A stretch of DNA of 53,864 nucleotides, taken from the IMG/VR virus record IMGVR_UViG_3300034068_000313, positions 1-53,864 of that record. One strand, written 5' to 3'. Shown piece by piece: positions 28,205 through 53,864 of the stretch (its first letter is position 1; every line of letters starts with the position of its first letter). The notes below the pieces were generated by a model, which was not told where the DNA came from, made no database searches, and saw nothing but the letters and a program-made list of their open reading frames with translations. Made by a program: the position numbers and the translations under genes. The DNA comes from a virus.

Positions 28205-28588
28205 TCACGATCGAGTGATTGCTATTGGATTCAAGACGATTGCTTTGAACTTGTCGACGTATGCGCCGCGTAGGAATGTTAGGTCTATCCATTGTTTGGC
28301 TTCTATTAGGTCCTCGAAGTAAACGTTGACGGTCTCGAAGTGTGGTTGTACACGGTAGAGCAGACCGTAGGGCTTGTTGTTGAACACGTCTTTTCTTTCG
28401 TAGATACGCACGCCGCGGAACTCTTCCACTGTGGGTCGGTCGATCTCTCTATCTTCTACTTCGAACTCGTAGTCCCTGATACGTATTTGACCTGCCTTGA
28501 TCATTTCAATGGCTTGCTCTTCGGCGTCGTCTTCATCTACTGCTTCGATGTTCACGCTTGCAAAGATGGCTACTCGGTAGTGTTTCAT
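28205..28588 (-). CDS. Hypothetical protein
   Basis: A 127-residue protein starting MKHYRVAIFASVNIEAVDED, then acidic helices (DAEEQAIEMIKAGQIRIRDYEFEVED). The opening 'V.i.a.v.veA.dedeAeeqA.e.i..g' matches a small repeated phage fold also hinted at in the 170-residue protein near 6.5 kb. The CA-rich leader and AGGAGA precede it. It overlaps the methyltransferase stop by four bases. Confidence 0.6.
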   Translation of the reverse strand: MKHYRVAIFASVNIEAVDEDDAEEQAIEMIKAGQIRIRDYEFEVEDREIDRPTVEEFRGVRIYERKDVFNNKPYGLLYRVQPHFETVNVYFEDLIEAKQWIDLTFLRGAYVDKFKAIVLNPIAITRS

Positions 28589-29430
28589 TTCTTCTCTCCT
28601 GTTGTGGTTTGTTTGTAGATTCGGTTGGACGCGATGAGTGCGTACTCGGGATTGATTTCTGTACCGACGAAGTATCGTCCGTGCCTCACTGCTACTACTC
28701 CCACGGTGCCTGAACCTGTGAACGGGTCAAGGATTAGGTCATCGGGGTTGGTTGATGAGATGACACAAGGTTCGACGAGTGCTTCGGGCATGACGGCGAA
28801 GTGTGCTCCCCTGTAAGGCTTGGTCGGGATTGTCCATACGGATCTCCTGTTACGCAGTGACACCTCGTCAACGGCTTGCTCACGTATGTCCTTAGCGTTC
28901 ATCAAGTACGACGGTGACTTACTGAGCAAGAAGAGGTACTCGTGTGCCTTGACGCAACGGTCAGCGATGGGTTCGGGCATAGCGTTCGGCTTCGACCATA
29001 TGATGTCCTGACGTAGATACCAGCCGTCGGCCTGTAGTGCGAACGCGACCTTCCACGGTATGCCGATGAGGTCTTTACGTTTCAAGCCTTCGGGAATGGT
29101 TCGTCGTCGTGTGTCGTCGTTGATGCCTTGCTTCTGTTTGACCTTGCCGTATGTTCCGTTGGTGTTGCCAACTTTGTTCGACGCATAGTTGTCGCCAAGG
29201 TTTAGCCACAGCGTGCCGTCGTCTTTGAGGACACGCCACACCTCTTTGAACACTGCGACGAGTTGTTCAACGTACTCATCGGGTGATGCTTCAAGACCGA
29301 TCTGTAGGTCGTTGCCGTAGTTCCTCAGTCCCCAATACGGCGGCGAGGTAATACAGCACTGAACACTCTTGTCGGCTATCTCCTGTAGGCGTACGCGTGC
29401 GTCACCGACCTTGATGTCCGCAAAGGTCAT
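28585..29430 (-). CDS. DNA methyltransferase (N4-cytosine/N6-adenine type)
   Basis: A 281-residue methyltransferase with catalytic TSPPYWGLR (28-36), then a target-recognition stretch, and the AdoMet-binding LDPFTGSGTVGVVAV near the C-terminus (motif I after motif IV, the beta-type order). It would methylate specific DNA sites, adding to the deazaguanine modification predicted from the que/dpdA genes. It overlaps both neighbours by four bases. No cognate restriction enzyme is nearby. Confidence 0.88.
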   Translation of the reverse strand: MTFADIKVGDARVRLQEIADKSVQCCITSPPYWGLRNYGNDLQIGLEASPDEYVEQLVAVFKEVWRVLKDDGTLWLNLGDNYASNKVGNTNGTYGKVKQKQGINDDTRRRTIPEGLKRKDLIGIPWKVAFALQADGWYLRQDIIWSKPNAMPEPIADRCVKAHEYLFLLSKSPSYLMNAKDIREQAVDEVSLRNRRSVWTIPTKPYRGAHFAVMPEALVEPCVISSTNPDDLILDPFTGSGTVGVVAVRHGRYFVGTEINPEYALIASNRIYKQTTTGEKK

Positions 29431-33331: not shown

Positions 33332-34237
33332 TCAGGGCGTGACAGGGGTTTGATGCAGGGACAGCAACTCGGCTCGGGCTTCGGGGTTGGTCCTGAACAC
33401 TCCACGCATGGCACTCGTGACTGTGTCGCCACTCTTCTTGATGCCACGCATACTCATGCACGTGTGCTGTGCCGACACGACAATGCCGACGCCCTTTGGT
33501 TGCAAGTGTTCCTCGATTGCGTCAGCGAGTTGGCCTGTCAATCGTTCTTGGACTTGCAACCTGTTTGCGTAGCAGTCAAGCAGTCGTGCCAACTTCGACA
33601 AGCCGACAACACGTGACGTCGGTATGTAAGCGATCGTCGCATGACCGATGAACGGCAGAATGTGGTGCTCGCACAGTGACGTGAATGGCAACTGCCGTAC
33701 GACGACCATCTCGTCGTAAGCAACATCGAACGTCTTGCTCAAGATCACTGCGGGGTTGTCGTTGTAACCCTTAGTGAGTTCACGCCAAGCCTTGGTCACG
33801 CGCCGTGGTGTTTCGAGTAAGCCGTCACGTGTGGGGTCTTCGCCGACGTGTTGAAGCAAACGGATAACGGCGTCAACAGGGTCGCCGTCCTCTTTCTCCC
33901 AAGGGAACGCGAGCCAACGGTCAGTGGTGGTTGCGTTGGGTGAATACATTGCGGGCGACCAAGGTTTACGGAACAACGTCTCCACGTGGATGCCACCGTC
34001 GGGGCGAACCAGTTTCATTGTTCGTCCTGTGTCAATGAGGTCGTCAACGATCAACGTGTGCGGGTCGTCAGGTGTTTCACACAGTGGGAGACCAAGTTTG
34101 TTCGCGACGAGTGTTGCGACTACAGCACCGCCCGTAGGGATACCGTAGACGCCTGTTGGGTTGTTACGTACGCGGGCGCATAGTTTGTCGACCTCTTGGT
34201 GAATGTCGTTCCAAGTGAGAGTCAGGATTGTTGTCAT
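33332..34237 (-). CDS. folE: Phosphoribosyltransferase-GTP cyclohydrolase I fusion
   Basis: A 301-residue fusion. Residues 1-115 are a type I phosphoribosyltransferase with GIPTGGAVVA and the PRPP motif LIVDDLIDTGRT (62-73) and end with WLAFPWE, as in xanthine-guanine enzymes. Residues 120-295 are FolE: CEHH (189-192), SRVVGLSKLARL, RLQVQERLTGQLADAI and HTCMSMRG, including the zinc ligands. FolE turns GTP into dihydroneopterin triphosphate, the first step to preQ0. It follows queE and starts ATG 34237, 8 bases after AGAGGAG. The PRT part may return free guanine to GMP; that is inference. Confidence 0.9.
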   Translation of the reverse strand: MTTILTLTWNDIHQEVDKLCARVRNNPTGVYGIPTGGAVVATLVANKLGLPLCETPDDPHTLIVDDLIDTGRTMKLVRPDGGIHVETLFRKPWSPAMYSPNATTTDRWLAFPWEKEDGDPVDAVIRLLQHVGEDPTRDGLLETPRRVTKAWRELTKGYNDNPAVILSKTFDVAYDEMVVVRQLPFTSLCEHHILPFIGHATIAYIPTSRVVGLSKLARLLDCYANRLQVQERLTGQLADAIEEHLQPKGVGIVVSAQHTCMSMRGIKKSGDTVTSAMRGVFRTNPEARAELLSLHQTPVTP

Positions 34238-34238
34238 G

Positions 34239-34982
34239 TCATACTCCTCTTTGATCACCGAAGGCTAAGACGTGAAGGCGTGTGGTGACGTTGGTGCCTT
34301 CCGCTGTTGCGATGTCAAACAGATCGGGCAGACGCCGATTGATTTCGTCTGCGCTTCGACCCTCAGGCATCAAGTAAATATCTTTCATGGACAGGCCGTG
34401 GAGACGAACCATCTCTTTGATCTCTAACAGGTCACGTACAGGGTCGCAGATGACAAACTTGAACGAGTGTTGCGGACACTCGATGAAACGTTCAAGAGCG
34501 TTCGGTACGTAACGCTTCGCAACGTGGACCCCCGACGACGCAAGTTTCGGTGACACGTTCCACTGCACGAGTTCAAAGATTGCTAACGGCGGTTCAATCG
34601 TTCCGTTCGTTTCGATCTCAACGCGGTAGTCGGGGTTCACGTCGAGCAACAGGTGTACCAGTTTGACCAGTCCAGCCTTCTGTACCAACGGCTCGCCACC
34701 AGTAATGACGAGTCGGTTCGTACCGCTCGCGGCAAACCAATCAACAATCTCTTCAAGTGTTACGCGTGACAGTTGTTCGGCCTTGTCGTACTTGACTCCG
34801 TTCTTGCCTGTCCAATCCCATGTGAAGGGTGTGTCACACCACGTGCAGTCAAGGTTGCAAAGACCCAAGCGTAAGAACATGGCTGGCTTACCGAGTGATG
34901 GTCCTTCGCCTTGCAACGTAGGACCGAACTTCTCTGCAACACTTAGTGAGCGCCCGTTCTGTATCACGTAGTAGTCGGTCAT
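34239..34982 (-). CDS. queE: 7-carboxy-7-deazaguanine synthase (QueE)
   Basis: A 247-residue radical SAM enzyme that contracts the ring of 6-carboxytetrahydropterin to 7-carboxy-7-deazaguanine. It has the cluster-binding C42-x3-C46-x2-C49 (LCNLDCTWCD), the substrate-pocket FGPTLQGEGPS, the ITGGEP motif, and ETNGT. The ATG overlaps the queD stop by one base. Length and motifs match QueE. Confidence 0.92.
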   Translation of the reverse strand: MTDYYVIQNGRSLSVAEKFGPTLQGEGPSLGKPAMFLRLGLCNLDCTWCDTPFTWDWTGKNGVKYDKAEQLSRVTLEEIVDWFAASGTNRLVITGGEPLVQKAGLVKLVHLLLDVNPDYRVEIETNGTIEPPLAIFELVQWNVSPKLASSGVHVAKRYVPNALERFIECPQHSFKFVICDPVRDLLEIKEMVRLHGLSMKDIYLMPEGRSADEINRRLPDLFDIATAEGTNVTTRLHVLAFGDQRGV

Positions 34983-35425
34983 CAACTCGCCTGCCACGAC
35001 GCTGCATTCTTTTCGTTCTCCCAACAGGTCACACGAATGACCTTTGCGTTGGGGAATCTCATGGCGGTCAATGTAACTGCTTGGTCACGTACCCAATTGA
35101 CCATGCCTTCCATTGTTGGGTCCATGATGCGAAGGTCTAAAGCGTCGGCCGCACCTAGGTATTGGATCTGTTCGAGGCACGGGTCGTCCTCGCTCACTAG
35201 CACAGTGTGATCGAATTGGTATTCAAGAGCGTCCCGTAGAACTTTGAGGTCGGCGAAGTCAACTACCCAACCACGCTCGTCGCGTGTGCCTTCCCACTCA
35301 ACCTCGACCCAACGGTCGTAGCCGTGAAGGTAATGGCAGTGACCACGATCTCGCCATTGGCGGTGACAGCAGGGGAAGCCGCCGAAACGTTTGATCACTC
35401 TTAGGATTTCATCTTGGGTCGTCAT
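34982..35425 (-). CDS. queD: 6-carboxytetrahydropterin synthase (QueD)
   Basis: A 147-residue enzyme converting dihydroneopterin triphosphate to 6-carboxytetrahydropterin. It has FPCCHRQW (His21), then HCHYLHGYDRW with C30 and H34, VVDFADLK, the catalytic EYQFDHTVL, and DPTMEGM and CWENEKNA at the end. The usual HGH is HGY, so the third zinc ligand is changed or shifted to His31. It overlaps queC and queE, so the three are co-translated. Confidence 0.85.
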   Translation of the reverse strand: MTTQDEILRVIKRFGGFPCCHRQWRDRGHCHYLHGYDRWVEVEWEGTRDERGWVVDFADLKVLRDALEYQFDHTVLVSEDDPCLEQIQYLGAADALDLRIMDPTMEGMVNWVRDQAVTLTAMRFPNAKVIRVTCWENEKNAASWQAS

Positions 35426-36098
35426 AGTGTGGCCTCGCTAGGTAGTCGGTTGGATCTTCGATCCCTGCTAATTCAAATGCTTCACGGCGCTCAAAGCAAG
35501 TACCACATGACCCGCAATGAATTTCACCACCCTTGTAGCACGACCATGTATCAAGCCAAGGTACGTTGAGGTCGTTGCCGATGGTACAGATTCCGTCTTT
35601 GGGGATTTGTACGTACGGTGCAAACACTTTGAAGTCTTCGTCAATGAATCCTTCGTTGGCTACGAGTAGCAGGTTCTGTAGAGCGTCGATGAACTGTGGT
35701 CGGCAGTCGGGGTAGATGTAATGATCGCCTGAGTGGACAGCGGTAGCGAGTACGTTTGCGCCCACTGTGACGGCGTAGCCCGCAGCGATGTTGAGCATGA
35801 TGCTGTTGCGGTTTGGTACGACCGTCTTTCTCATGTTCTCTTCGGCGTAGTGACCGTCAGGTACGGGTGCATCGCTGGTCAGTGTGGACTTACTGATGAG
35901 TCCTGTGAGGTGTGTGATGTCAACGATCGTGTGGTTGAGACGGAGTTTGCCTGAAGTGACCTTGGCGTAGTCAAGTTCTTTCTTGTGTCGTTGTCCGTAG
36001 TTGAACGACATGAGATGAACGTCGTAACCCTTAGCCACAAGATCGTAGGTGAGAACTGTTGAGTCCATTCCACCGCTGACGATTGCTAACGCTTTCAT
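35409..36098 (-). CDS. queC: 7-cyano-7-deazaguanine (preQ0) synthase (QueC)
   Basis: A 229-residue ATP-dependent enzyme that turns 7-carboxy-7-deazaguanine into preQ0. It has the PP-loop SGGMDST (8-14), FNYGQRHKKEL, VPNRNSIMLNIAAGYA, and the zinc cluster C-x7-C-x2-C-x2-C (CYKGGEIHCGSCGTC). It overlaps dpdA by four bases. There is no fused amidotransferase domain, so the product is preQ0 rather than an amidated base. Confidence 0.93.
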   Translation of the reverse strand: MKALAIVSGGMDSTVLTYDLVAKGYDVHLMSFNYGQRHKKELDYAKVTSGKLRLNHTIVDITHLTGLISKSTLTSDAPVPDGHYAEENMRKTVVPNRNSIMLNIAAGYAVTVGANVLATAVHSGDHYIYPDCRPQFIDALQNLLLVANEGFIDEDFKVFAPYVQIPKDGICTIGNDLNVPWLDTWSCYKGGEIHCGSCGTCFERREAFELAGIEDPTDYLARPHYDDPR

Positions 36099-37246
36099 TC
36101 TGTTTCTCCTTTGGCTGCTGTGATTAGGTTTTCTATTGACCCCTCGGCGAGGTGTAGGTGTAAACCTTTGTCGCCTTGTGACTTTGTTTCAGTACCCGTC
36201 GCACGGTAGTGATGCAACTTGTTTGCCCTAGTGGGCAGTGGTACCGCGCCGTGTTTCTTTCTTAGGAACTGTTCGTACGCACGCCAAGAGTTAGCCGCTA
36301 CGGGAATGATCTTTGTTCTGTGGTAGCGCGAGCGGTCGGCTATGTCTTCAGGGTCGCCGCCGTACTTACGAATGAACGGTGCCAACTTGTAGATCGACTG
36401 TGCGTCGCCTACGCCACACGTTTCGAACTTACGACCTGTCCACACTGCGAGTCGACCGAAGCGGTGACCCATTCCCCACGACGATGAGTCAACACTGAAC
36501 CAAGGTAACGCTTGAATGATGTCGTTGCGTGTTTGCCCGAAGCCGTGAAACACTGTGTCCTTACCCTCAACTCGTTTGAAGCAGGTTGCTGTCCACTTCA
36601 ACGCTGTAGGTCCGGGTACACCTACCATTCCACCGAGCGCGATGTAGCCGTAGTCCTTTGCCATGTCGTCAAGCACTTTGAGGTCGGTGCCAGTGTGTAC
36701 GACTGGCATTGGGTTCAAGCCTTGGTTCTCTAAGTACCGTTGATTGACCGCTGTTGCTTTCGCATCTCTAATGACGTCAAGGTTTACGTATGTCGTGAAC
36801 AGTGATTCCCATTGCTTCAACCAAGCCGCGTAGTCCGCAACCTTTACGTCGGCACCCTGTGAGTAAGCACTGAACGCACCCGAGTCGGCGAACACCATTG
36901 GGCGTGTTGGGAACTTTGCTAACACTGCCGCGATGTCGACCTTCTTGTAGTAGTGATATGAGATCAACATCTTGAAGGGTTGTGCTTGTGTTGCTTGTGC
37001 GGTGGGGAGTTGTTTCTCTTCTCCGCTTAGGGCTAAGTGAAGGTTGAGTCCTTCGGTGTGTTCTTTCATGTCTGCCTCTGCGATTGGGGGAACACTGTTG
37101 AGAGCACTGAGTACGAGGTACACGTGCGGACCTGTGTTGGTGATTGCATTGGCTTCATCGGTCTTTGTGACAAGGTATACGTGAGGTCCGTTACTCGTTG
37201 ATGAGTGGGTCGGCGTAGTCGAGGAGTGTGTTGATTCGTTCGTCAT
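36095..37246 (-). CDS. dpdA: DNA 7-deazaguanine transglycosylase (DpdA)
   Basis: A 383-residue member of the TGT/DpdA family, which swaps guanine in DNA for a 7-deazaguanine base. Family text includes LISYHYYKK, the catalytic-type FADSGAFSAYSQG (Asp121), YVNLDVIRDA, PVVHTGTD and YIALGGMVG. It is unusual in carrying short related strands at both ends: PHVYLV at 21-26 and 40-45, LNLHLAL at 67-73, and LHLHLAEGS at 362-370. It overlaps the ParB-like gene upstream by 56 bases and queC downstream by four. No tRNA-specific end domain is visible, and all partners for preQ0 are beside it. Confidence 0.85.
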   Translation of the reverse strand: MTNESTHSSTTPTHSSTSNGPHVYLVTKTDEANAITNTGPHVYLVLSALNSVPPIAEADMKEHTEGLNLHLALSGEEKQLPTAQATQAQPFKMLISYHYYKKVDIAAVLAKFPTRPMVFADSGAFSAYSQGADVKVADYAAWLKQWESLFTTYVNLDVIRDAKATAVNQRYLENQGLNPMPVVHTGTDLKVLDDMAKDYGYIALGGMVGVPGPTALKWTATCFKRVEGKDTVFHGFGQTRNDIIQALPWFSVDSSSWGMGHRFGRLAVWTGRKFETCGVGDAQSIYKLAPFIRKYGGDPEDIADRSRYHRTKIIPVAANSWRAYEQFLRKKHGAVPLPTRANKLHHYRATGTETKSQGDKGLHLHLAEGSIENLITAAKGETE

Positions 37247-37793
37247 CGTCCTTGCCTTCTACTGTTGCGAACACTCGTTGCCAGCGTGCGTTGGTTTCGG
37301 GTTCGACCTTGATTGAGATGGTGGGGTTGAACACTGAGTCGTCGTCATGAGCACCAATGTTCTTGATGAGGTCATCAAGGTTCGGTGGAGTCAAGAGTCG
37401 TTCTAAGTCTTCAAGGTCGATGTCGTTGTATCCCGAACCCTCTAGCCCGCCTTCGGCTTGTGTTAGGCGTAGTAGGTCGATCAACAGGTCGTCATCGTAA
37501 GACGCGACGTCGTTTGAACGGTTGTCCACGAGCAGTAGTTTGCGAGCCTGTTGGTCATCTACATCAACCCAAAGCACGGGTATCTGTTCGATGCCTACAT
37601 TGACCGCAGCCTGATAGCGGTGGTTACCGACGACGATGTGGCGTGTTGCCTTCTGTACTACAAGCGCACCATAGAAGCCGTTGGTACGGATTGAATCCTC
37701 AAGTCGGTCTAGGTTGCCGCGGCGTGCGTTCTCAGGGTGGAGTTCGAGTGTGCTTACATCGACCAGTTCGTAATCACTTGGTAGCAGATTCAT
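37191..37793 (-). CDS. ParB-like domain protein, possible DpdB-type partner
   Basis: A 200-residue protein from ATG 37793 (MNLLPSDYELVDVSTLELHP), 6 bases after AAAGGA. ParB/Spo0J N-terminal text includes LHPENARRGNLDRLEDSIRT, VVGNHRYQAAVNVG and VDVDDQQARKLLLVDNR. There is no partner ParA, so partition is unlikely. Its end overlaps the start of dpdA by 56 bases. In Salmonella, DpdB (ParB-like) is needed with DpdA to place preQ0 in DNA; this could be a phage counterpart. That role is inference. Confidence 0.75.
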   Translation of the reverse strand: MNLLPSDYELVDVSTLELHPENARRGNLDRLEDSIRTNGFYGALVVQKATRHIVVGNHRYQAAVNVGIEQIPVLWVDVDDQQARKLLLVDNRSNDVASYDDDLLIDLLRLTQAEGGLEGSGYNDIDLEDLERLLTPPNLDDLIKNIGAHDDDSVFNPTISIKVEPETNARWQRVFATVEGKDDDERINTLLDYADPLINE

Positions 37794-38022
37794 CGTTGTC
37801 CTTTCGGTGGATCTCATTCCACACTGTTTGATTCGTCAGGCCGAGGGCATTGGCGATTTGGCGTTGGGGAAGTTTGTCGTCCTTCCATGCTGACCGTATC
37901 AGGTTCCTGCGCTCATTGTTGCGATTCATGATCTCTTGTTCGAGCCGACGCATCTCTTCAGTGAGGTGTCGAGCCTTCTCAAGTTTCTCATTCATGGATT
38001 CAGTTGTGATTGTGTCTGTCAT
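37774..38022 (-). CDS. Small helix-turn-helix protein
   Basis: An 82-residue protein. A coiled coil (MNEKLEKARHLTEEMRRLEQEIMNRNN, residues 10-37) leads to a helix-turn-helix in LPQRQIANALGLTNQTVWNEIHR (residues 51-73). It overlaps the ParB-like gene by 20 bases. It probably binds DNA as a dimer and may set expression of the modification cassette; inference. Confidence 0.65.
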   Translation of the reverse strand: MTDTITTESMNEKLEKARHLTEEMRRLEQEIMNRNNERRNLIRSAWKDDKLPQRQIANALGLTNQTVWNEIHRKDNDESATK

Positions 38023-52153: not shown

Positions 52154-53864
52154 ATCGTTGTCGTTCTTCCCGACTTCTGAATCTTCAACAAGCCGACACG
52201 TACTGCTTCAACAAGGTTGCGCTCAGAAGTGACAGAGCCGTTCACGTTCACAGTGACGTACGTGTCACCACCACCGCCGTAGTTGTTCATCTGCGACAAA
52301 GGAATGATCGCTTCAGGCCCGCTCTCACCGATTACACCGATACTCGGCTTCATAGCGATACCACCTTGACTGTGGAATCCACTGAAGTCAATACCCGGCG
52401 GCAAGTAGATACCGCCAACGATTGCGCCACCGTTCGCAAGCGCACCGTCAGCAAGGTTCGTCTGCTGACCCGCTGTGAAGTTCGAGTACGCCGATGCCGC
52501 AACAGGTGTCGTGAGTTTGTCGATGCCACCTTGAAAGCCTGCAAGGAACGTGAACATCGTGTCGTGAAGATCAACCTGAATTGCTGTGACGAGAGCCGCC
52601 ATCTGCGTGCTCACACTCTCAAGACTTGACTCAAGCCCGTTGACAAGTGTTTGCTGTTGTTCGAACTGTGCTTGTGCTTGTGCAACAGCGTCAGTGAACA
52701 GTTGACGCACGAGAGCGTTCTGAGTTGCTAGTGCGCTCTCTGCGCCAGCAATGTCAGCACCGAACACAACTTCGCCTACAAGAGCACCCGACTCTGTAGC
52801 GATCGCTGATATCTGTGATCGAACATTCAACAGTTCAGCGATGTCTCCTGCTGACATACTGAGAAGACTCTTGGCGATCTTGTTGCCTTCAAGAACGCCT
52901 GCTTGTGCGACCTGTGCGATGATGTCTGAACCGAATCCTGCATCACGCAACGATGTCAAGTTGTCACGGAACGTCGTCGCTTCAGCGAGCATCTTGCGTG
53001 CGTTGCCGAGCGGGTTCTTTGCTGTGATCGGTTGCACCACAGAATCCGAAACACTCTTTGCAAGATCACTTTGCTGTTGCTTGAGTGATTCACTCTTGGC
53101 GAACAGTTCGTCGTACTGCTTCTGTGCCGCTAACGCTTGATCGAGCAACGTATTCGACGGCGCTGTACTGCCTGTGATCGTTGCGTCGAACTTGCCTGCG
53201 GCAACTTGCACCTCTTCAAGTGTTGACTTGAATTCCTCTAGTGCTTTTGTTGCGTCTGCGAGTTGTGTTGTGAGTACGTCACGTACGTCAGCCATGTTGC
53301 TGAGTCGAGCGAACTGTGCCTTGATCTTGTCGATGAAGCCCGCGAACTGTGGCAACTTGTCTAGCCCGAGACGGACTGCTTCGTCGAGTGTTGCTTGTAA
53401 TGCTTTGCCAATTTCTTTTGACGAGCCATAAAGAAGCGCGTCGCGGAAGTCTGTTGACATCAGTTCATTCGCATAGCCCGCAAGGTCATTGACCATATTC
53501 TCAACGAAAGCCGCCAAGTCATTAGGTGCTTGAGTCTTTGTACTACCGCCACCGCCACCGCCACCACGACCAGTTGGACTGCCACCCGTAGTACCAATCG
53601 CAGACCTGATTGCCTTCAAGTCCGAGAGAGTCTTACTCAATCTCATCGTCGTGTCGCCAGTAGCAGCACCAGCAGCCCACAACATATTCCCTATAGCCGC
53701 CTGAACGTTGGCGATCTGTTTGTCAAGGTCGGCAGTATTGATAGCGAAGTTCACACCGAACTCTGCTTCAAGTCCATCGAGTATCCCCATCGAGTCAATG
53801 AGTCCACGTACCTCTTCATCGGTGTAGCCAGCAGCACGAGCAGCGTCACCCAAACGAAGAACCA
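52150..53864 (-). CDS. Tape measure protein, C-terminal part (begins across the contig ends)
   Basis: The final ~567 residues of the same tape measure that begins at 2701; the frame runs on unbroken through the 15-base overlap of the two ends. It includes a glycine-rich linker (PTGRGGGGGGGSTK), long coiled-coil stretches (AKSESLKQQQSDLAKSV, QAQAQFEQQQTLVNGLESSLESV) and a C-terminal part with MKPSIGVIGESGPEAIIPL, the typical tape measure ending. Its stop overlaps the tail hub start (ATGA). The internal TTG 53853 is not the real start. Confidence 0.92.
   Translation of the reverse strand, partial: VLRLGDAARAAGYTDEEVRGLIDSMGILDGLEAEFGVNFAINTADLDKQIANVQAAIGNMLWAAGAATGDTTMRLSKTLSDLKAIRSAIGTTGGSPTGRGGGGGGGSTKTQAPNDLAAFVENMVNDLAGYANELMSTDFRDALLYGSSKEIGKALQATLDEAVRLGLDKLPQFAGFIDKIKAQFARLSNMADVRDVLTTQLADATKALEEFKSTLEEVQVAAGKFDATITGSTAPSNTLLDQALAAQKQYDELFAKSESLKQQQSDLAKSVSDSVVQPITAKNPLGNARKMLAEATTFRDNLTSLRDAGFGSDIIAQVAQAGVLEGNKIAKSLLSMSAGDIAELLNVRSQISAIATESGALVGEVVFGADIAGAESALATQNALVRQLFTDAVAQAQAQFEQQQTLVNGLESSLESVSTQMAALVTAIQVDLHDTMFTFLAGFQGGIDKLTTPVAASAYSNFTAGQQTNLADGALANGGAIVGGIYLPPGIDFSGFHSQGGIAMKPSIGVIGESGPEAIIPLSQMNNYGGGGDTYVTVNVNGSVTSERNLVEAVRVGLLKIQKSGRTTTI

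Follow-up and report, generated by a model that had tools for sequence, protein, structure and literature searches.

The window analysed here, the whole of an IMG/VR virus record at 53,864 nucleotides, holds on its minus strand a run of genes whose ends overlap or abut, in the order ParB-like, DpdA, QueC, QueD, QueE and PRT–FolE. The last gene encodes a phosphoribosyltransferase (PRT) domain fused to FolE, GTP cyclohydrolase I. The genes and the features of the fusion are as follows.

37191..37817, minus strand: ParB-like protein (PF02195, E 7.1e-9)
36095..37246, minus strand: DpdA-type DNA guanine transglycosylase (phrog_7068, E 6.3e-47; phrog_887, E 1.7e-45)
35409..36098, minus strand: QueC (PF06508, E 1.8e-60)
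34982..35425, minus strand: QueD, PTPS family (PF01242, E 7.4e-23; phrog_2389)
34239..34982, minus strand: QueE, radical SAM (phrog_2076, E 2.6e-51); the ORF extends to 35024 (TTG), and the ATG at 34982 was taken as its start
33332..34237, minus strand: PRT–FolE fusion gene, 301 aa, a single ORF (Pfam, PHROG and NCBIfam matches; AlphaFold2 model)
33893..34237, minus strand: XGPRT-like PRT domain, residues 1–115, flexible loop absent (profile matches; domain model)
34127..34147, minus strand: pyrophosphate loop YGIPTGG, residues 31–37, with Thr35 where most relatives have Arg
34019..34054, minus strand: PRPP motif LIVDDLIDTGRT, residues 62–73 (columns near invariant among 150 PRTs, 85 of them fused and 65 stand-alone)
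33896..33916, minus strand: base-site motif WLAFPWE, residues 108–114, the counterpart of WIEQPWD in Gpt
33335..33877, minus strand: FolE (GTP cyclohydrolase I), residues 121–301, with CEHH and C260 (PF01227)

With FolE, QueD, QueE, QueC and a DpdA-type transglycosylase in a single run, the window virus carries what is, by gene set, a phage 7-deazaguanine DNA modification cluster. The fusion ORF starts with an ATG at 34237 and stops at 33332–33334, and the opposite strand is interrupted by stops. The ParB-like gene is kept directly upstream of DpdA in the close relatives of the window, and we presume that its product may be a counterpart of DpdB, the ParB-domain protein of bacterial dpd islands. 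An N4/N6 DNA methyltransferase is encoded in the same virus at 28585–29430 (PF01555, E 2.7e-48), so that two types of DNA modification may occur in it. No DNA nearly identical to the window was found in the phage collection.

The N-terminus of the fusion matched the Pfam family Pribosyltran (32.7 bits against a cut-off of 26.3) and a PHROG phosphoribosyl transferase family (E 2.2e-13), and scored 43 bits with the NCBIfam xanthine PRT model, under the 138-bit cut-off of that model. When a profile of nine phage PRTs was compared with solved structures, the top matches were the Pyrococcus purine PRT 1vdm (5.5e-21) and the XGPRTs of E. coli and Yersinia. The AlphaFold2 model of residues 1–116, built on 102 relatives (pLDDT 91.8), best matched E. 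coli XGPRT 4jls (Z 15.3, 2.4 Å, 114 residues), with a Z of 14.8 for 1a95, XGPRT with a PRPP analogue and guanine, 12.4 for the ppGpp-bound XPRT-like protein 5vog and about 10, well under XGPRT, for PyrR. The model of the whole fusion had a pLDDT of 94.4. Fold, PRPP motif and W..PW(D/E) motif together place the N-terminal half among the purine-type PRTs of the XGPRT (Gpt) group. The original prediction had described residues 1–115 as a purine-type PRT joined to a full FolE; ORF, Pfam, PHROG and fold all bear it out, and the motifs it quoted lie at residues 62–73 and 108–114.

Across 85 fused and 65 stand-alone PRTs, D65, D66, D69, G71 and T73 are near invariant, with the catalytic-acid position D69 kept in 83 of the 85 fused and all 65 stand-alone proteins; Trp108 (83/85 fused), Pro112 (84/85 fused), Trp113 and Glu114 are near invariant as well. 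We take D69 to be the XGPRT Asp that touches N7 of the purine; 7-deazaguanines have no N7, so guanine would fit better than preQ0.

In members of the XGPRT family, a flexible loop closes to cover the active site. The window PRT departs from the XGPRT group in this feature, with a GG-to-DD spacing of 27 residues compared with 48 in Gpt, the roughly 21 missing residues being the flexible loop (loop II). The loop is missing from all 84 measurable fused PRTs and from 61 of 65 stand-alone PRTs, the loop-bearing exceptions being those of MaInes, phiST and two further loci (L169 and L176). Fusion to FolE was ruled out as the cause of the loss, the stand-alone PRTs being just as short. The pyrophosphate loop RGG has its Arg in 64 of 65 stand-alone PRTs; the window protein has Thr35 at this position, and most members of its clade have lost the Arg too. 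The original prediction was made unaware of either departure.

The FolE half is, by sequence and model, a complete GTP cyclohydrolase I: PF01227 (GTP_cyclohydroI) covers residues 123–295 (E 3.6e-70), Pfam and NCBIfam together 122–296, the TIGR00063 equivalog scores 221.3 bits against a cut-off of 181.6, Foldseek matched this half to GTP cyclohydrolase I at about 50% identity, and the zinc and active-site residues C189, H191, H192, H258 and C260 are invariant columns. Both halves are constrained. Between the window and a 96% identical relative (L011), the PRT half had a dN of 0.053 and a dS of 0.798 (dN/dS about 0.07), and is thus under purifying selection, and the FolE half a dN of 0.018 and a dS of 0.356. 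The PRT half evolves faster than FolE in several pairs and is variable outside its motifs.

Two scans of IMG/VR yielded 81 distinct PRT–FolE fusions and 60 distinct stand-alone relatives, and fusions or neighbouring PRT genes occur in more than 100 distinct phage sequences. FolE is present in all fusions by definition; among the 36 fusions flanked by 5.5 kb or more at both ends, DpdA was near 35, QueD and QueE each near 36 and QueC near 27, and every DpdA detected beside a fusion shared its strand and lay less than 5 kb away. The fusion is thus shared with other DpdA phages, where the original prediction had proposed to look for it, and is not concentrated in phages that lack DpdA or QueC, the pattern that it had named as damaging.

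The linkage extends to unfused genes. In the stand-alone scan, which used as its query the PRT sequence alone with one degenerate motif, 75 of 80 loci hold at least one FolE, Que or DpdA gene, and the PRT lies no more than 300 bp from FolE in 47 of the 52 loci with FolE in the available DNA (FolE upstream in 31, downstream in 16); these loci were picked by similarity, and the linkage holds for this PRT clade and not for phage PRTs generally. No DpdA was found in six well-flanked stand-alone loci, which lie on linear and perhaps incomplete contigs. The steady partner of the PRT is FolE, not DpdA. Loci L110, L114, L115, L130 and L133 have FolE and a stand-alone PRT, most of them also QueD and QueE, with QueC and DpdA unrecognised, in L133 across its full 111 kb; they may either use an unknown insertion enzyme or be incomplete contigs.

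Among isolated phages, the fusion is found in NP1, PaMx25 and the relatives of both, VpKK5, Vibrio phage 1.117.O, MMDA13, and Stenotrophomonas and Xanthomonas phages, and is annotated there as GTP cyclohydrolase. An unfused PRT immediately precedes folE in Flavobacterium phage immuto, immediately follows it in Brevundimonas phage MaInes, and lies apart from it in Campylobacter phages CP220 and F379 and Cellulophaga phage phiST; PF00156 by itself misses several members of the clade, among them that of CP220. DpdA-like ORFs were detected in CP220 (E 2.9e-16) and F379 (E 2.9e-17). These ORFs, of about 264 aa (NC_027997.1 54681–55319, L200, in CP220; MT932329.1 105076–105723, L201, in F379), contrast with a 2019 survey that put Campylobacter phages in its DpdA-less group. 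The DpdA-like proteins of phiST and MaInes are more divergent (E 5.5e-6 and 3.9e-6 at first detection, with later E-values partly circular because both rows had entered the model); they are encoded near FolE/QueE and annotated as hypothetical (CGPG_00065 in phiST, L179; MAINES_00850 at L006 3676–4476). The phrog_887 family was too narrow to pick up marine-group and Campylobacter-group DpdAs, for which a four-row DpdA alignment with iterated HMMs worked better. No QueC was detectable in phiST, though the PRT is present. Judged from this gene content, the PRT is probably a recurrent, overlooked component of phage 7-deazaguanine clusters.

A scan of a genome collection also revealed the fusion in bacterial contigs, amid housekeeping genes (L204 8001–8858 and L207 8004–8858), where two PTPS genes are followed by the fusion and then by a short-chain dehydrogenase (SDR). 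The fusion was present in 12 of 14 genomes of one order of marine bacteria with genomes of about 1 Mb (loci L204, L207 and L211–L222), each of the 12 bearers having two PTPS genes upstream of it, and was absent, except for one marginal hit, from the remaining 44 genomes of the class. DpdA had no match in the fusion-bearing marine genomes, in a search that lacked an internal positive control there. From its gene families the bacterial operon looks like a biopterin-type pathway. The marine PRT is loop-less and keeps DD.(I/L/V)DSG.T, with VPKNG for the pyrophosphate loop and FP(Y/F)E for PWE, and the genomes that bear it contain other PRT-fold genes too. In a tree of 124 columns, the bacterial fusions formed one clade nested among the phage fusions of a Queuovirinae-like group, which makes capture from a phage likely. 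These bacteria suggest that the fusion has a use even where DNA is not known to release guanine. The window clade was separate from the Queuovirinae-like fusions; the tree is too weak for counting events, and a single origin of the fusion was not upheld. A loop-less stand-alone PRT of the same type also lies on a chromosome of the candidate phylum Lloydbacteria (L210 8001–8369), beside translation genes and with no FolE or DpdA near it.

Some modifying phages do without the PRT. No PRT of this type was found in CAjan, 9g or Dp-1 by the search that finds those of NP1, VpKK5, MMDA13 and immuto. CAjan has 70,628 dPreQ0 per million nucleotides at 44.7% GC, roughly a third of G (PMC6884629), and 9g has 25–27% dG+, a figure quoted in PMC8265664. 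Because CAjan and 9g modify their DNA without it, the PRT is an accessory and not a requirement. Seven IMG/VR loci whose FolE or DpdA is related to that of the window have both of these genes and no PRT.

Stoichiometric release of guanine by base exchange is established for TGT, and an exchange that releases guanine has been proposed for DpdA (PMC6884629). Our tentative preference, at a little under an even chance, is for a compact guanine/xanthine-type PRT that serves FolE, with guanine freed by DpdA as a partial source in phages. The PRT half would convert guanine and PRPP to GMP, which host kinases would raise to GTP, the substrate of FolE; in DpdA phages, part of the free guanine would come from DNA, swapped for a 7-deazaguanine base, and its removal would also take away a competitor of the incoming base at DpdA. 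Since FolE, a GTP consumer, is common to nearly all contexts, the PRT is read most simply as a supply module, and since guanine would be made stoichiometrically in DpdA phages, a recycling loop would be a natural special case. To judge from the cellular fusions, the PRT would in general feed or tune FolE, and recycling of DpdA guanine would be its phage case. The guanine/xanthine/hypoxanthine PRTs as closest solved structures, the near-invariant PRPP and base-site residues in 150 sequences, the linkage to FolE and to DpdA clusters and the purifying selection on the PRT half count for a supply role, as does retention of a PRT distant from folE in CP220 and phiST, both with DpdA-like ORFs. Against it count the absence of loop II, the replaced RGG Arg of the window clade, the need for two kinases, the PRT-less CAjan, 9g and Dp-1, the cellular fusions with no DpdA detected, in genomes with other PRT-fold genes, and the six stand-alone loci in which no DpdA was found. 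Fusion of PRT and FolE gives no direct hand-over, because GMP is two kinase steps from GTP.

The original prediction had gone further, with a possible closed loop in which guanine leaves DNA, returns to GTP and re-enters DNA by way of preQ0. The purine-type PRT and its linkage to DpdA even when unfused speak for that loop, and the missing flexible loop and the modification of CAjan and 9g speak against it; its dependence on DpdA held in phages (35/36) but not in the marine order, where 12 of 14 genomes have the fusion and DpdA was undetected. In its strict form, in which a loop-less PRT is dedicated to catching the guanine that DpdA expels, which is then returned to GTP and rebuilt, pulling the exchange forward, we consider salvage of the by-product conceivable but rather unlikely.

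The missing flexible loop is the strongest doubt about a supply role, and it makes regulatory sensing the main rival. The PRT fold would then serve as a ligand-binding regulator, tuning FolE in response to PRPP or a guanine nucleotide with little or no turnover. The loss of loop II, FolE as a fixed partner, fused or adjacent, the persistence of the fusion in a cellular pterin operon in which DpdA is undetected, and PyrR and ppGpp-bound 5vog as structural neighbours would all accord with such a regulator, but D69, which a dedicated regulator could lose, is retained, and unfused PRTs lie far from folE in CP220 and phiST; on balance we regard it as a doubtful but serious candidate. If instead the enzyme made GTP from the guanine of host nucleic-acid breakdown, with DpdA-derived guanine a minor source, the demand of FolE for GTP in all contexts, the purine turnover that surrounds replicating phages and the cellular fusions with no DpdA detected would be explained; we think this improbable, as the phage clade follows 7-deazaguanine clusters almost exclusively and not phages at large.

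Two further readings fare worse. The PRT could act on a 7-deazaguanine base, preQ0 or its kin, to make a nucleotide for insertion by polymerase. The conserved Asp expected at N7 would have no partner in a 7-deaza base, phiST has the PRT and no detectable QueC, and a DpdA, which uses the free base, accompanies the PRT in nearly all cases, with a DpdA-like ORF even in CP220 and F379. An insertion route through modified dGTP has been proposed for Campylobacter phages (PMC6884629), which carry the PRT, and we nevertheless hold this reading to be very unlikely. The last reading, a vestigial PRT half that merely travels with FolE, would suit a short, loop-less domain that is variable beyond its motifs and evolves faster than FolE in several pairs; with a dN/dS well below 1, motifs invariant across very diverse sequences and linkage to folE in either gene order, it is scarcely credible.

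The window PRT resembles E. coli Gpt (XGPRT) in the fold of the whole domain (Z 14–15, 2.2–2.4 Å), the PRPP motif and W-x-x-x-PW(D/E), and differs from it in the loss of about 21 loop residues, the fusion to FolE, Thr35 and a score under the NCBIfam cut-off. It shares a fold with PyrR and other PRT-fold regulators (Z about 10), which are more distant than XGPRT, and retains D69. Its FolE resembles known FolE in being a complete domain with the zinc and active-site residues kept, and differs in bearing an N-terminal PRT. The dG+/preQ0 clusters of Queuovirinae type (NP1, PaMx25, VpKK5 and MMDA13, and the PRT-less 9g and CAjan) have the same FolE–QueD–QueE–QueC–DpdA gene set, and NP1, VpKK5 and MMDA13 share the PRT–FolE fusion, annotated only as GTP cyclohydrolase; the window differs from them in its ParB-like gene before DpdA, its gene order and its separate PRT clade. 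Further phage 7-deazaguanines and DpdA subfamilies were reportedly described in a 2023 NAR paper. Our literature search, which did not extend to that paper, found none joining a PRT with DpdA or 7-deazaguanine modification in phages, in keeping with the original prediction, which was aware of no described phage system stating the idea. We provisionally regard the PRT as a new, apparently undescribed accessory of the known 7-deazaguanine DNA modification system.

The preQ0/DpdA pathway has been counted as five genes, and a phylogenetically widespread sixth, usually annotated as a hypothetical protein or merely as GTP cyclohydrolase, would alter the view of its supply side. It raises the question of whether phage base modification needs, or gains from, salvage of the displaced base and, for enzymology, whether a type I PRT can function without its flexible loop. 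Through the PRT–FolE protein, the modification clusters of phages are also connected with a pterin operon found in streamlined marine bacteria. If guanine expelled by DpdA is indeed captured, its capture would both recycle material and pull the base exchange forward.
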